Positions 2,369 through 7,709 of a stretch of DNA of 10,554 nucleotides are shown piece by piece. The notes under the pieces were generated by a model. The model ran no database searches. It was not told the origin of the DNA and saw only the letters and a list, made by a program, of their open reading frames with translations. The first letter of the stretch is position 1. Every line of letters starts with the position of its first letter. The DNA comes from Alphaproteobacteria bacterium (GTDB lineage Bacteria; Pseudomonadota; Alphaproteobacteria; Sphingomonadales; Emcibacteraceae), in the NCBI GenBank assembly GCA_002749135.1, contig NVVY01000017.1, positions 12,595 through 23,148 on the forward strand, written 5' to 3'. Made by a program: the position numbers and the translations under genes.

Positions 2369-2476
2369 ATGATATTAACATGTGCTGATTGTAAGCGATG
2401 CGTTGCCCCCACCTGTTTTTGTATCTGTACAGGTGTTATGCTTGCTTCAGAGGGGTGTCAATCGAGTTTTATTTGA
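2369..2476 (+). CDS. Possible 35-residue cysteine-rich small protein
   Basis: A short frame in the convergent gap after rsmD: ATG 2369-2371, stop TGA 2474-2476, overlapping the last 8 bases of phoD on the other strand. A possible Shine-Dalgarno (AAAGG) ends 4 nt before the ATG. It would encode seven cysteines in 35 residues, spaced C-x2-C-x2-C-x4-C-x-C-x-C-x9-C (positions 5, 8, 11, 16, 18, 20, 30), which suggests metal or disulfide chemistry if it is made. No known family is recognised. The evidence for translation is only the start, the weak ribosome site and the unusual composition. Some of the cysteines come from repeated TGT triplets in and near an inverted repeat, so chance is a serious alternative. 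Confidence 0.22.
   Translation: MILTCADCKRCVAPTCFCICTGVMLASEGCQSSFI
2410..2435. repeat. Inverted repeat between convergent rsmD and phoD
   Basis: Arms CACCTGT (2410-2416) and ACAGGTG (2429-2435) are perfectly complementary with a 12-nt loop. It sits between two converging genes, where a bidirectional terminator would be expected, but neither strand shows a T-run after the stem, so it is at best a weak or factor-assisted terminator. It could also be a protein-binding site. It lies inside the possible cysteine-rich frame. Confidence 0.4.
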
Positions 2477-3863
2477 TCTTGTTTTCCCACGTCATTACGC
2501 CATTTGTCAATTCGCTGGCTTTTAAAATAAGTGGTTCCCAAACTGCCCCGCCATGAACACCAATGAGATTGAACGTTAAAACAGGTTCATCAGTTGTCAT
2601 ATCAAAATCAATAACACCAAAATTTGTGGTTCCTGAATATGGCGTACGGATACGGACTTCGGGATTTCTGCCCAAAAATTTATTGCTTGTGGCCTGAGCC
2701 AGTGGCGAACTAACAAAATTGTAAAAGTCATACCCCCCTTTTTCTGACCAAGGAATAGCATTCAATTCACCATAGTGTGTGTCGCCTGATAAAAGAACAA
2801 CCCCGCCTATGCCCTCATCTCTGATAAAATCAAGTATTTCGTTACGCTCATTTAAAAAAGATGACCACGAATCAAGGTCCTGGCCACCTACATTCGACCA
2901 TCCTGTACCACAGATTAAAAATTTGAAAGGGGCCGTGCTTTTTAATAGTTCTTTTTTTAACCATTCTTTCTGTTCTGATCCCAACATTGTTTTATTGTTA
3001 TTATTTGGCTGTTCGCCAGAATCGCGGTAATATCTTCCATCCAAAAAGAAAAAGTCTACGCCGCCGTACGTATAACTAAAAAAGACTCCGGGGGTGTTTG
3101 TTAAACCATAGTGCGGGTTGGCCCAATAACGTTTAAAGACATCAAGCGATTCTTCTCTAATTGGATTTGCCCGATCATAATCATTTCTCCCATAATCATG
3201 GTCATCCCAGATCGCCAATTGAGGAACTGTCCGGCTGACCTTCTGCATAGAGCTCACAGCCCGTTGCTGCCGATATTGACCAGCAATAATTTCTGGATTT
3301 TTACTGTCTGAATATATGTTGTCGCCAAGCCAGAAGAAGAGATCCGGCTTCCAGAGAGAAACAGCATTCCATATTGGCTGAATTGGATCACCTTGCAGTC
3401 GGGCACAAGACCCGAAAGCAAGCCGAAATTTTGTTTTGGACCCTAATGCCGGGGCCGTTTTAAGATTGAAGGGGGGCAGGAAAGACAGGTCTGGAAGCTG
3501 ACGAGCCCATTGTCCAAGAGCTTTACCTCTATTTAGAAAAACGCGGTAATAATAATTTGTATTTTCTTTTAGACCGTTGATGGAATGTACCGTAACAAAG
3601 TCATTTTCTGATTTTGCTAACTGCCTACTGGCGACGAAAGGATGCTTGAAAAGAGGATCGGTATCCACTCTTATTTCTACTTCATACTCGCCATTGGCTC
3701 TTGTCCAGATAAGAGCCTCGGTAGGGGTGACGGCGCCGAGCATGGGGCCCTGAACCAAATGAGGATAGGACATGTCATCAAATCCGCTGGCGAAAGCCCC
3801 AACTCTTGCAGTTGCAAAATAACTGGCACTGGCAAAAAGAAATGCTCTTTTGGAAATAAGCAT
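2469..3863 (-). CDS. phoD: Secreted PhoD-like alkaline phosphatase / phosphodiesterase
   Basis: A metal-dependent phosphoesterase expected to release phosphate from phosphomono- or diesters outside the cytoplasm. The 464-residue protein has an N-terminal export signal (residues 1-26, ending AFA-SG), an immunoglobulin-like PhoD N-domain (about 33-138, with PMLGAVTPTEALIWTR), then the metallophosphoesterase domain with GSC (151-153), LGDNIY (179-184), WDDHDYG (219-225) and SGDTHYGEL (359-367), whose Asp, Asn, His and Cys residues form the Fe/Ca-type metal site in known PhoD proteins. The frame extends to an ATG 21 nt upstream, but AAAAGGG lies inside that extension, 6 nt before ATG 3861-3863, so the inner start is chosen. 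PhoD enzymes are normally Tat substrates with twin arginine; here the motif is S-K-R-A-F-L, a lysine-arginine variant. It follows the TonB receptor by 80 nt on the same strand. Substrate preference cannot be read from the sequence. Confidence 0.88.
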   Translation of the reverse strand: MLISKRAFLFASASYFATARVGAFASGFDDMSYPHLVQGPMLGAVTPTEALIWTRANGEYEVEIRVDTDPLFKHPFVASRQLAKSENDFVTVHSINGLKENTNYYYRVFLNRGKALGQWARQLPDLSFLPPFNLKTAPALGSKTKFRLAFGSCARLQGDPIQPIWNAVSLWKPDLFFWLGDNIYSDSKNPEIIAGQYRQQRAVSSMQKVSRTVPQLAIWDDHDYGRNDYDRANPIREESLDVFKRYWANPHYGLTNTPGVFFSYTYGGVDFFFLDGRYYRDSGEQPNNNNKTMLGSEQKEWLKKELLKSTAPFKFLICGTGWSNVGGQDLDSWSSFLNERNEILDFIRDEGIGGVVLLSGDTHYGELNAIPWSEKGGYDFYNFVSSPLAQATSNKFLGRNPEVRIRTPYSGTTNFGVIDFDMTTDEPVLTFNLIGVHGGAVWEPLILKASELTNGVMTWENKIK

Positions 3864-3899: not shown

Positions 3900-3938
3900 G
3901 AATAATCGGGCCGGTTATTTAACCAGCCCAATTTATTC
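3900..3938 (-). other. Strong intercistronic hairpin between the receptor gene and phoD
   Basis: In the minus-strand RNA the core stem is GGGCUGGUU with AACCGGCCC, nine pairs including one G-U, closed by the loop AAAU. Outside it a short A+U stretch and a further GAAUAA/UUAUUC pairing extend the structure with a small asymmetric bulge. No U-run follows on the minus strand, so a simple intrinsic terminator is unlikely. It begins 5 nt after the receptor stop, a position where such hairpins often protect the upstream message from 3' exonucleases or lower expression of the downstream gene. That role is inferred. Confidence 0.65.
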
Positions 3939-3943
3939 TGGAA

Positions 3944-6334
3944 TTAAAAGTTATAACGCGCTCGCATAGTGATAACACGAGGTGATAAATATTGCTTGCT
4001 CGTGAATCCCTGGAAAAAATCATCGGTATGTATGGAGCTGACAGAATTATTATCGAAGATATTCTGAATGGCAAACTCTCCCGTCCAATTACTGTTCTCT
4101 GGTTTAATTTGAATATTCAGATCTAACATATCGTACGATGGTACAATATCACGTTTCGCAGAATTAAATACACGGGCGAAATATGTCCCGCGATGTGTAT
4201 ATATCAGACTTAATGTCGCATTCCCAAAATCAGGAATTTCCCGCAGATAGGTTAAACGGACATTGGCAACAAGATCCGGAATTTTTGGTAATTCATTGCC
4301 AGTAACATCCTGAGCCAACGAATTGATTGCTGCAATAATAGCCGGGTCTAGCGGTTTGGCAAAGGGGTTAAGACCTGAACCTCCCAATGAGGGCGGTGCT
4401 GTAAGGGCAGCTGTTATATTGGTTTGCTCTGCACGATCAACGGCCAGGCGACCTTGTTTTATGTTGCTTTTAGATATCGTCAGATTTCCATCAAGCCATA
4501 AATTATCAAGCAACGTAGCACGGCTTTCGATCTCAATGCCATAAACTTCAGATTTAGGCAGGTTGGCCCCACCGCTAACCCCGCTACCCGTCAGTTTCAG
4601 GCCAGCCGACTGAAACAGGAAGTTATCAATATTATAGTAATAGGTCGCAATATTAAGGGTTACCCTATTATCCATAAACTTGTTCTTTGATCCTATTTCA
4701 TAGGCCGTCACCTTCTCTTCCTTGAATATCTCGGGGAAGAATCCTGCGCCGGTGCTATCCGTAGCAAAACCATTATTCGAGGCAGCAGGTTTTTTCCCCG
4801 TTGCCACAGATCCATAGATCATATTATCATCTGTCGTATTATAACTGACCGCCCCTTTAAACGTAACGTTATTGTTCGTTGCAGAAGGTGTCCTGGTAGA
4901 CGTCCGTCCGTTGACAACACAAAATAAGCTACAACGTTCATCATTGAATTTATTGGTTGTATATCTTAACCCACCACTTATTCTCAGCTTGTCATCCATA
5001 AGATTAATGCCAGTTTGGCCAAAAAAGGAATAGGTCTCGAAATTCCTAAAATCAGCATTGATGAAATCAACATCGGGATTGGCAAACGGATTTGGCGCCA
5101 TGGTTTTTGTGTTGACCGGATTACCATCAAAGCCAGCATCAAAGAAATTGGCGGTGTTGCTAAAAATTTTAGTGTTCATATAAAAAGAACCAATAATCCA
5201 ATCGAAAGCTTCATCATTATCAGGTGATGAAATATTGATTTCTGCGGTATATGTCTTGTCATTCTGTAGCAATGTCCCAACGTGCTGACGTATGGGTAAC
5301 TCACCAAGAAGATCGATGGTACCCACCAAGGGCAAGGGAGCGGGATCATTGGCTGTTAATGATGAGCGATCCGCATCCAGAACTCTCTGCATGCGATATT
5401 TTTGATAACTGAACAGTCCCTTAATCTGTGCTATAGGCGTACTCCAGTCGACGATGATGCTGGCGGACTGGTTATCAATAGTAAAAGATTCGAGCGTATC
5501 ATGAGCAACCTTCCTCGGGTCCGATGAAATGGTATCAAAACCACCTTTTAGCGCGGGACCATTTATATCCGACTTAAAGGAATGATATGAAGCGAGAATG
5601 GAAAGGTCTTCGGTTGGGGCCCATAAAATCTGGGCCGCCAGTGAATCGTCATTCTCATCATCCAGATCATGACCGGGAATGGCAAGATTCTTTGTATAAC
5701 CATTATGTTCACGATGAGACCCGGTTAGTTTTACCGCCAAATCTTGTGACAACGGGACGTTGATTGTTCCCCGTACCCGTGATGTTGAATAGCTCCCGAA
5801 AGTTGCGTCAATGAACCCGTCTATATTATCAAAATGCGGTTTTTTCGTAATGATATTAATCATACCGCCTGAGGAACTATTACCATATAAAGTACCATCA
5901 GGTCCTCGAACTACCTCTACACGTTCAATGTCAACCAAATCCTCAAACAGCGCGTAATCATTCGACATAAAGACACCATCGACATGGTATGCCACACCGG
6001 GTTTCGTGGCCGCATTGTCAGGCACTTCATTGCCGATTCCGCGAATGGCTATTGTCCGCCGGTAGCCTTGAACATTGGTAAAAACAACGCCAGGTACTTT
6101 GTCACTGAGGTCAAATGCGTCACTGATATTCAATATATCAAAATCATCTCCCTTGATGGCACTGACGGCACCCGCAATATCCTGGAGACTTTGATCCCGC
6201 TTTTGAGCGGTTACAATTATTTCATCTATTTGATTATTCTTATTCACTTCTTCGCTTTGCGCATAAGCCATCGGAATAATGGCTAGTGCAGTTGTCGAGA
6301 ATAGAATTTTTTGTAGCTTGCTTTGGAAACTCAT
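3944..6334 (-). CDS. TonB-dependent outer-membrane receptor
   Basis: An outer-membrane beta-barrel that takes up a large or scarce solute using energy from TonB-ExbBD. The 796-residue protein has a signal peptide (1-25, cleavage after AYA), a TonB-box region DEIIVTAQKRDQSLQDI (37-53), a plug domain (about 47-165: LSDKVPGVVF, IAIRGIGNE, VEVVRGPDGTLYGNSSSGG, INIITKKP), and a barrel ending in the outer-membrane signature Phe796. Cys468 and Cys472 lie in a probable external loop and could form a disulfide. Plug segment PDGTLYGNSSSGG differs from the common PQGTLYGRNATGG. The start is ATG 6332-6334, because GAGGAG lies 10 nt upstream inside a longer frame (ATG 6350-6352). It is the first gene of a probable operon with phoD and has a Pho box upstream, so the cargo is probably a phosphorus compound. 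The sequence alone does not reveal the ligand; a siderophore or other nutrient is the alternative. Confidence 0.93.
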   Translation of the reverse strand: MSFQSKLQKILFSTTALAIIPMAYAQSEEVNKNNQIDEIIVTAQKRDQSLQDIAGAVSAIKGDDFDILNISDAFDLSDKVPGVVFTNVQGYRRTIAIRGIGNEVPDNAATKPGVAYHVDGVFMSNDYALFEDLVDIERVEVVRGPDGTLYGNSSSGGMINIITKKPHFDNIDGFIDATFGSYSTSRVRGTINVPLSQDLAVKLTGSHREHNGYTKNLAIPGHDLDDENDDSLAAQILWAPTEDLSILASYHSFKSDINGPALKGGFDTISSDPRKVAHDTLESFTIDNQSASIIVDWSTPIAQIKGLFSYQKYRMQRVLDADRSSLTANDPAPLPLVGTIDLLGELPIRQHVGTLLQNDKTYTAEINISSPDNDEAFDWIIGSFYMNTKIFSNTANFFDAGFDGNPVNTKTMAPNPFANPDVDFINADFRNFETYSFFGQTGINLMDDKLRISGGLRYTTNKFNDERCSLFCVVNGRTSTRTPSATNNNVTFKGAVSYNTTDDNMIYGSVATGKKPAASNNGFATDSTGAGFFPEIFKEEKVTAYEIGSKNKFMDNRVTLNIATYYYNIDNFLFQSAGLKLTGSGVSGGANLPKSEVYGIEIESRATLLDNLWLDGNLTISKSNIKQGRLAVDRAEQTNITAALTAPPSLGGSGLNPFAKPLDPAIIAAINSLAQDVTGNELPKIPDLVANVRLTYLREIPDFGNATLSLIYTHRGTYFARVFNSAKRDIVPSYDMLDLNIQIKPENSNWTGEFAIQNIFDNNSVSSIHTDDFFQGFTSKQYLSPRVITMRARYNF

Positions 6335-6350: not shown

Positions 6351-6385
6351 ATCCATTGGATATTAAAATCTAAATAAATATATTC

Positions 6386-6403
6386 ATTGGTATCGGCACC
6401 AAT
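6386..6403 (-). repeat. Small inverted repeat in the receptor mRNA leader
   Basis: ATTGGT and ACCAAT, six pairs with the 6-nt loop GCCGAT (minus strand), about 50 nt before the receptor start. It might form a modest leader hairpin. No riboswitch family is recognised. Confidence 0.35.
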
Positions 6404-6449
6404 TCATCTGGTAATAATTGAATATCACCACATATCTAATGGATAGGAA

Positions 6450-6480
6450 ATATTACGGGAGCGTGACTGTTATGTGACAG
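6450..6480 (-). promoter_or_regulatory. Predicted Pho box and promoter of the receptor-phoD operon
   Basis: On the minus strand the 18-bp site at 6463-6480 reads CTGTCACATAACAGTCAC: two 7-bp repeats separated by ATAA, an 11-bp period. Against the PhoB consensus CTGTCATAWAWCTGTCAY it has two mismatches, and the spacer fits AWAW exactly. Seven nt downstream is TAATAT (6450-6455), a 4-of-6 match to a sigma-70 -10. PhoB-dependent promoters carry the Pho box in place of a -35, usually with about 10 nt to the -10, so the spacing here is slightly short. The site is 128 nt before the receptor start codon. PhoB binding is predicted from sequence only, but a phosphatase gene in the same operon supports it. 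Confidence 0.68.
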
Positions 6481-6614
6481 TTCCTTGCATGGGGGATGTG
6501 AAATAGTTTCGGTAATGTTTCCCTAATTAAAGAGAACCCTCCACTTTTACGAAGCAAGTCCAGATAAGCATTGAGATGATATCTGTATGACTTGTGAAGC
6601 CTCCCTTTGACCAC
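6453..6614 (-). other. Open 53-codon frame, possible degenerate gene end
   Basis: A frame from GTG (6612-6614) to TAA (6453-6455) with no ATG and no Shine-Dalgarno before the GTG; it is open from a TGA some 20 nt further upstream. The predicted peptide is basic and looks protein-like (for example LNAYLDLL, LIRETLPKLFHIPHARN), loosely reminiscent of the C-terminal ends of some DDE transposases, but no family can be named with confidence. The codons include several AGG, AGA and ATA, unlike the conserved genes nearby. The Pho box lies inside its 3' end. It may be a remnant of a lost gene or a chance open frame. Confidence 0.2.
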
Positions 6615-6690
6615 AGTATACACTAAAATATATCAAATCTCGACAGAACCTAGGTTAAATCAGCGCCCTCAACAGAGGAAAATCAAGAAT

Positions 6691-7674
6691 TTAAGACCTG
6701 AGTGCCTTGTCAAAAACATCCCTATCTACATTGCCGCCACTCAGCACGATACAAAAGGTTTTTCCCTTAACATCCATGCGGCCTGAAAGCATGGCGGCAA
6801 GGGCCACGGCCCCACCCGGCTCGACCACAAGCTTTAGGTTCTCCCACGCATATTTTACTGCCTGCAAGACTTGTTCGTCATTAACTGTTAAAATGGAATT
6901 TACATGTTTCTGCATAATATTAAAGGTCATCTGGCCCGGTGACTGTGTGAGCAAGGCATCACAAATGGTTCCGCTAAAGTGGCTGTTTTTCTGAATTGCG
7001 CCACTTTCAAGCGACCATTTCACATCATCGAAACTCTCCGGCTCCACACCATAAATTTCCGTATCCGGTGACAGGGATTTTATGGCAGTTGCGCTTCCTG
7101 AGATCAGACCGCCGCCGCCCACAGGACAGACAAACCCGTCAAAGGCCACGCCCATATTCCGGCCCTGTTCAATGACCTCTAGCCCGACAGTTCCCTGACC
7201 ACATATAATGTCAAAATCTTCAAAAGACGGCACAACAACCGCACCCTGTTTCGCCGCAATAGCCGCCGCGATTTCTTCCCGGCTGTCCGTCTCCCGATCA
7301 CATTTGACGACTTCGGCGCCGTAAGAAAGCGTGTTTTCCAGTTTCATGGCCGGTGCATCGGACGGCATGACAATCGTGGCTTTAATGCCAAGTAGTTTGG
7401 CCGCAGCGGCAACCCCCTGCGCATGATTTCCTGATGAAAAAGCCACCACACCGCGGGCCTTCTGCACATCACTCAACTGACATAACCGATTATAGGCCCC
7501 GCGAAATTTAAAAGCCCCGACCCTTTGCAAATTTTCCGGCTTGATAAAAATCTGTGCGCCAAGATGTTCGGACAGGGGCGCAGACCGTAATAATGGCGTT
7601 TTAACCGCAACGTCCTTTATCCTGTCAGCGGCATCCTGAATGTCTTTTAATGTCGGATATTTATTTCTAGACAT
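6691..7674 (-). CDS. PLP-dependent threonine/serine dehydratase (no ACT domain)
   Basis: A fold-type II pyridoxal-phosphate enzyme expected to deaminate L-threonine to 2-oxobutanoate and/or L-serine to pyruvate; relatives include catabolic TdcB and serine racemases. In the 327-residue protein the PLP lysine is Lys56 in GAFKFRGAYN, SSGNHAQG (80-87) is the substrate/carboxylate loop, GGGGL (186-190) binds the cofactor phosphate, and SGGN (312-315) contacts the pyridine ring. The length equals that of single-domain TdcB-type enzymes; the regulatory ACT domain of biosynthetic IlvA is absent, so isoleucine feedback is not expected. The frame begins with TTG 7678-7680, but ATG 7672-7674 is preferred: GGAG is 10 nt before it and only 4 nt before the TTG. 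The ribosome site is part of an inverted repeat. The nearby ilvD is divergent, so a link to branched-chain synthesis is possible but not shown. Racemase activity cannot be excluded. Confidence 0.88.
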   Translation of the reverse strand: MSRNKYPTLKDIQDAADRIKDVAVKTPLLRSAPLSEHLGAQIFIKPENLQRVGAFKFRGAYNRLCQLSDVQKARGVVAFSSGNHAQGVAAAAKLLGIKATIVMPSDAPAMKLENTLSYGAEVVKCDRETDSREEIAAAIAAKQGAVVVPSFEDFDIICGQGTVGLEVIEQGRNMGVAFDGFVCPVGGGGLISGSATAIKSLSPDTEIYGVEPESFDDVKWSLESGAIQKNSHFSGTICDALLTQSPGQMTFNIMQKHVNSILTVNDEQVLQAVKYAWENLKLVVEPGGAVALAAMLSGRMDVKGKTFCIVLSGGNVDRDVFDKALRS

Positions 7675-7678
7675 AGAC

Positions 7679-7709
7679 AAACTGCTCCATAAAATTTACA
7701 GAGCAGTTT
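7679..7709 (-). promoter_or_regulatory. Perfect 9-bp inverted repeat covering the dehydratase ribosome binding site
   Basis: Minus strand: AAACTGCTC (7701-7709), a 13-nt spacer, GAGCAGTTT (7679-7687), 9 of 9 complementary, with two more possible G-U pairs outside in RNA. The Shine-Dalgarno GGAG (7685-7688) is three-quarters inside the downstream arm, and the ATG begins 4 nt after the arm ends. In RNA the hairpin would hide the ribosome site; in DNA the same dyad could be an operator for a dimeric repressor. Which is true cannot be told from sequence. Confidence 0.6.

Follow-up and report, generated by a model that had tools for sequence, protein, structure and literature searches.

A near-consensus Pho box precedes a TonB-dependent receptor and PhoD-family phosphatase gene pair in an Emcibacteraceae genome: evidence for a probable PhoB-controlled route to organic phosphate

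A TonB-dependent receptor gene in an alphaproteobacterium of the family Emcibacteraceae is preceded by a three-repeat Pho box and followed by a gene for a PhoD-family phosphatase, and we consider it likely that the two genes form a portable, PhoB-controlled cassette for the scavenging of organic phosphate. The window, by which we mean the whole 10,554-nucleotide stretch of DNA analyzed, corresponds to G000:C8:12595-23148 in a draft genome of 2.84 Mb in 57 contigs that is 88.8% complete. Judged from its sequence, the promoter probably places receptor and phosphatase under PhoB; we assign the pair, rather than the receptor alone, to this control because phoD is the next gene, and since the PhoB switch precedes both a receptor and a phosphatase, the pair would be made under phosphate scarcity and serve in scavenging. 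In the mechanism we propose, PhoB~P would bind three repeats spaced by 11 bp at 6452-6480 during phosphate starvation, the repeats would replace the -35 element, and the bound regulator would recruit RNA polymerase. The transcript would cover the receptor gene, pass an attenuating stem-loop and continue into the gene for the PhoD-family phosphatase/phosphodiesterase. The receptor would deliver an organic phosphate to the periplasm, where PhoD, probably exported via Tat, would free phosphate for import by PstSCAB.

The core of the Pho box lies on the minus strand at 6463-6480 and, as the preliminary description had stated, consists of CTGTCAC (repeat 1, 6474-6480), an ATAA spacer and CAGTCAC (repeat 2, 6463-6469). 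The count of two mismatches given there was also accurate, as the site departs at exactly two of 18 positions from the Escherichia coli PhoB consensus, CTGTCAT-A(A/T)A(T/A)-CTGT(C/A)A(C/T), in the form quoted from PMC3465305. The exact pattern CTGTCAC-ATAA-CAGTCAC occurs only once in the 2.84-Mb genome. Scored as single 7-mers, repeats 1 and 2 reach 10.3 and 5.2 bits, respectively, and combined they reach 18.7 bits with an 18-bp matrix trained on pstS promoters. A probable third repeat, CCGTAAT (6452-6458, minus strand; 7.3 bits, P = 0.0009), had been overlooked; it keeps the 11-bp register and outscores repeat 2, and the genome's own pstS promoter likewise contains three in-register repeats, of 8.8, 5.0 and 3.6 bits. 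With three repeats at 6452-6480, the region agrees with the definition of a Pho-box promoter as at least two CTGTCAT-like 7-mers at 11-bp spacing. Spacing arguments place the candidate -10 element at TAATAT (6450-6455) or TATTTC (6447-6452), both on the minus strand. The TAATAT hexamer noted earlier is indeed present after the first two repeats, but it overlaps repeat 3, so that either hexamer may serve as the -10. A sigma-70 consensus scan returned no promoter at the Pho box and two sites elsewhere in the region, where 1.5 were expected, and no direct repeats of at least 12 bp turned up in the receptor upstream region, which is unsurprising given repeat units of 7 bp. The receptor leader (6353-6455) has a predicted fold slightly more stable than that of its shuffled counterparts (-21.7 kcal/mol, z -2.05).

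To build the matrix, pstS was searched in 60 relatives and matched in 41; 30 loci were returned and all 30 were scanned, of which 22 relatives' promoters served for training while the genome itself and seven close kin were held out. The window site, at 18.7 bits, stands slightly below the held-out pstS site of the same genome (20.4 bits) and far above the runner-up in the window (8.8 bits). Scores for all eight held-out pstS sites lie between 19.3 and 21.1 bits, and those for the training sites between 14.5 and 24.8 bits. Scores of at least 18.6 bits have a chance probability of 2.6e-7 per position, which amounts to roughly 1e-4 over a single strand of the 338-bp receptor upstream region, and none of 500 column-permuted matrices reached the site score on this region (mean 2.8, best 17.8). 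Genome-wide, chance alone would yield about 1.5 such sites over both strands (1.1 to 2.0 at G+C 0.50 to 0.40), so the score by itself is no proof, and position and neighboring genes must count. The comparison with sites of pst and pho genes that had been proposed as a check came out in favor of the site: the receptor upstream region is second, just below pstS, among 178 upstream regions of this genome, a set that comprises genes for which 300 bp of upstream DNA were available, represents part of the genome and is enriched for pattern hits. Ranks 3 and 4 belong to a homologue of inositol-3-phosphate synthase (16.0 bits) and its divergent neighbor (15.4 bits), and rank 5 to a gene resembling uvrC by eye, whose site is probably a chance match. 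Loose consensus scanning was rejected because it separates true Pho boxes poorly from noise: a scan allowing up to two mismatches gave 95 sites against 38 for a reversed control, and a second gave 102 against 68. Since these scans discriminate poorly and the hits of the first fall mostly within ORFs (75 of the 91 hits re-found in the retrieved DNA lay inside ORFs of at least 150 aa; the other hits among the 95 were duplicates or lay outside that DNA), the pstS-trained matrix was preferred. At the level of sequence, this analysis confirms the Pho box as real.

The genome encodes the regulator on which such a promoter would depend. PhoB was recognized at 337.4 bits (cut-off 296.2) and, on the same contig, PstB at 362 bits (cut-off 343), within an ORF order that reads kinase-pstS-pstC-pstA-pstB-phoU-phoB, named partly by eye. 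PstS scored 151.2 bits with the PstS model, under its cut-off of 206.6, and the kinase before pstS scored 299.4 bits with the PhoR model (cut-off 334.2), its best match being PnpS at 319.7 bits (cut-off 400). Other Pho-like sites were also observed. Four CTGTCAT-like repeats in 11-bp register (G000:C7:21549-21588, L019) precede a gene for an OlsF-like ornithine-lipid synthase; the site scores 16.6 bits, and the gene is outside the 178 since its locus ended within it. Its truncated piece scored 314.4 bits against a cut-off of 620. Ornithine-lipid genes of the OlsF-like type are expected in a Pho regulon, and Pho-controlled lipid remodeling is a probable role for this one, as far as its promoter sequence indicates. 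At G000:C10:46654-46693 (L194, L195), two divergent Pho-like sites lie between an uncharacterized gene and the homologue of inositol-3-phosphate synthase, which scores 429.9 bits against a cut-off of 638. A second PstSCAB-like cluster (G000:C4:5220-11326, L110) is located downstream of another TonB-dependent receptor, and the scanned stretches of this cluster and its receptor contained no site of at least 14 bits.

The receptor gene (3944-6334, minus strand) encodes a protein of 796 aa with plug and beta-barrel domains. The listed ORF starts at 6352 and would give 802 aa; we chose the ATG behind AGGAG on the basis of this ribosome-binding site and of relatives, two of which (P0121 and P0122, 92% and 87% identical) are 796 aa long with an identical start position. 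PF07715 and PF00593 both exceed their cut-offs, and the AlphaFold model (mean pLDDT 84) has the TonB-receptor fold. The family is broad, with 77 relatives at E <= 1e-60 among 7997 scored candidates; those named include gammaproteobacteria (Haliea, Idiomarina, Colwellia and Pseudoalteromonas), and their annotations, where given, read TonB receptor, 'iron complex' receptor or hypothetical protein.

Because the partner is a phosphatase and the pair appears to be PhoB-controlled, we favor an organic phosphate as the cargo. The main rival cargo is iron: cells starved of phosphate may need more iron, for instance to supply PhoD-type enzymes, and PhoB could then control a receptor for an iron complex, which we regard as improbable. 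PhoD enzymes carry iron. The best NCBIfam match of the receptor is TIGR01783, TonB siderophore receptor, at a score (140 bits, 1e-40) below the cut-off of 223.5, and its best PDB match in both sequence and fold is 4epa, FyuA. A link between PhoB and iron supply appears in the excerpted text of PMC11126600. Against iron stand the phosphatase partner, found both here and in G002, and the lack of any reductase, siderophore or ABC-transporter gene beside the receptor in the window. The siderophore-receptor match says little, since most solved TonB receptors in the match lists are siderophore receptors, and reading the cargo from the fold was rejected, with Fiu, FhuE and FhuA close behind FyuA. Phytate as an established cargo was rejected as well: the loci that bear a phytase gene in the same 16-kb stretch as a PhoD relative (in G271, G267 and G357, including L164 and L166) differ from the window locus, the window genome, at 88.8% completeness, has no match to the Pfam phytase family PF02333, and no phytase was seen by eye in the G071 stretch with PhoD.

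The phosphatase gene directly behind the receptor (2469-3863, minus strand; 464 aa) had been overlooked in the preliminary description. The listed ORF runs to 3884, and the start was chosen by the ribosome-binding site and by relatives of 464-465 aa. Its product belongs to the PhoD family by its scores for PF09423/PF16655 (104.8 bits, cut-off 27, and 44.6 bits, cut-off 30); it reaches 57.6 bits of the 1000 required by NF058638, the alkaline phosphatase PhoD equivalog, and is thus PhoD-like rather than that equivalog. It begins with what we take to be a KR-type Tat-like signal. The protein shares with 2yeq, presumably the PhoD of Bacillus subtilis, its fold and the motifs SC, GD-IY, WDDH and GD-H, but identity is about 20%, and 2yeq is a secreted enzyme of a Gram-positive organism. 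Purple acid phosphatases follow 2yeq in the structure search, which is uninformative on the substrate.

Between the two genes lies a stem-loop (3900-3938, minus strand; -22.7 kcal/mol, z -5.85) that may act as an attenuator or partial terminator, and because it separates the genes, simple co-transcription of receptor and phoD is disfavored. PhoB might then drive the receptor only, with the stem-loop cutting off phoD, which would depend on low read-through or on another promoter. We hold this to be rather unlikely, and it overlaps with our preferred explanation, the two not being mutually exclusive. The strength of the stem-loop and its position right after the receptor stop codon speak for receptor-only control, as does the corresponding gap in G002, which contains another, different hairpin that has a U-tract (z -2.84 over 86 nt, -1.56 over 146 nt). 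No U-tract follows the stem-loop in the window, however, and the 36 nt between it and the PhoD start codon leave little room for a promoter. A PhoB-driven transcript that passes an attenuating stem-loop remains our preferred reading.

Comparison with relatives changes the scope of this regulation. Beyond the window, receptor orthologues at E = 0 were found only in G002 (84% identical) and G007 (68% identical) when the best six candidates from each of 147 genomes were scored, and a further scan of contigs gave only receptors of 25-36% identity, useless for comparing promoters. A lack of the repeats upstream of orthologous receptors had been named as grounds for refutation, and they are indeed missing at both orthologues reached, the best sense-strand scores upstream being 5.6 bits in G002 and 0.9 bits in G007. 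Scores were also low upstream of G002 phoD (5.1 bits) and of a sigma-factor-like gene in G007 (8.7 bits), and a 10.6-bit site in G002 two genes upstream of the receptor (L041:2429) was rejected as approximately at chance level for 10 kb. The earlier proposal of Pho control of the receptor therefore gains support from the ranking of the site but not from conservation. As the box is absent at both orthologues, Pho control should be seen as a trait that belongs to this genome or its lineage rather than to the receptor family.

The same absence raises the possibility that the Pho site arose by chance or is a relic, and that something else controls the pair, as in the relatives. The G002 receptor promoter contains the promoter-like sequence TTGACC-17-TATTAA, found by eye, and G007 has FecR-like and sigma-factor-like ORFs, also named by eye, before a receptor with a weak STN match below the cut-off. 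These arrangements, and the roughly 1.5 equally good sites expected per genome, speak for a chance or relic match. The position and strand of the site, its third repeat and the PhoD neighbor are jointly unlikely under such a reading, given a probability near 1e-4 from the upstream region alone, and we consider it very unlikely. A palindrome, GATCACAATT...AATTGTGATC, was observed in the G002 receptor promoter region (L041:4037-4272); with the TTGACC-17-TATTAA sequence, it suggests a different, possibly repressor-type control. We tentatively propose, as a possibility somewhat less likely than not, that a mobile cassette exchanges its control on moving: PhoB here, a repressor-type palindrome promoter in G002 and sigma/FecR for the G007 receptor. 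The G002 pair sits beside catabolic genes, and the G007 contig ends before any phoD position.

A PhoD of this kind (E <= 1e-60) was found in eight of 396 genomes of the order, the window genome included. In G002 it adjoins a receptor of the same family. Three more cases have receptor and PhoD homologues on contigs of matching size (15540, 26141 and 3095983), which suggests linkage there too. In G077 and G331, the PhoD gene comes after a TonB receptor gene from a different family, whose product has no blastp hit to the window receptor at 1e-5; a separate, divergent receptor in G331 was weakly matched. The G077 locus (L042, 4847-13791) was seen to carry genes for a sigma factor, FecR, a TonB receptor, two PhoD proteins and PhoX in a row, apparently a phosphatase island under surface-signaling control. 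In G071, G271 and G267 (L043, L164 and L166), PhoD genes were found behind MFS genes and among genes resembling those of inositol catabolism, where iol-type names were assigned by eye and Pfam and the G267 MFS arrangement by eye; the transporter was identified as UhpC/GlpT-like by search in G071 (L043) only. In the eighth genome, G357, neither a receptor gene nor an MFS gene was seen clearly adjacent to PhoD.

The upstream flank suggests how the pair may have come to this location. The closest relative, G009, whose pstS and ammonia-lyase proteins are 96% and 89% identical to those of the window genome, has no match to the receptor (E <= 1e-60, best six candidates scored) or to PhoD (E <= 1e-40), and DNA similarity to G009 stops at 6666, before the promoter. 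A 27-bp repeat (6536-6562), 55 bp upstream of the Pho box and with no transposase gene here, recurs at three further places in the genome and has matches in six other genomes of the genus; at three of 10 other loci it runs into a common start, ATG-CCC-A-(C/T)-x-AAG-AAA-CGT, encoding MP(T/I)KKR. From these features it is probably the end of an insertion sequence. The adjoining 91-bp segment (6563-6653) has a second copy, 96% identical, at G000:C36:37893-37982, and the promoter part itself (6353-6522) had no other match in 16 genomes of the genus at E <= 0.001. Insertion-sequence activity may thus have joined the receptor-PhoD cassette to this site, with the Pho box either carried along or acquired. 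Beyond the break, 6691-7680 encodes a PLP enzyme whose nearest match is threo-3-hydroxyaspartate ammonia-lyase, at 374.8 bits against a cut-off of 452.

PhoB-controlled TonB receptors are already known from Caulobacter crescentus, where PhoB controls various such receptors that are proposed to import phosphate donors (PMC11208175). The window resembles that system in placing a TonB receptor in an alphaproteobacterial PhoB regulon, and the Caulobacter regulon includes phosphatases, a phytase and a phosphodiesterase (PMC11208175). Unlike the window, with its single Pho box before an accessory two-gene pair, the portion of that article at hand describes no direct receptor-PhoD pair. In Flavobacterium, three TonB-type transporters and two SusCD-like complexes are induced by phosphate depletion only, and the Pus complexes are co-located with phosphomono- and diesterases (PMC8115612), much as the receptor here adjoins a phosphatase. 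Those, however, are named Pus complexes of Bacteroidetes with a SusD partner (PMC8115612), whereas the window has only one receptor, and no SusD-like gene was observed next to it. A Citromicrobium TonB receptor adjoins a phytase, so that its cargo, too, is inferred from an adjoining phosphate-releasing enzyme (PMC3400609); the enzyme in the window is PhoD-like instead, in a genome with no phytase-family match. Among the literature matches listed, no title or opening of an abstract reports a Pho box in control of a receptor-PhoD pair.

In conclusion, because the box is absent at both orthologues reached, homology by itself is a poor ground for transferring the control. Marine bacteria encode many TonB receptors of unassigned cargo, and a Pho box at the rank of pstS combined with a phosphatase partner suggests organic phosphates as a testable class of cargo for the receptor family described here. 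If the proposed exchange of control is correct, one uptake function may serve phosphorus starvation in this organism and substrate-induced catabolism in other species.
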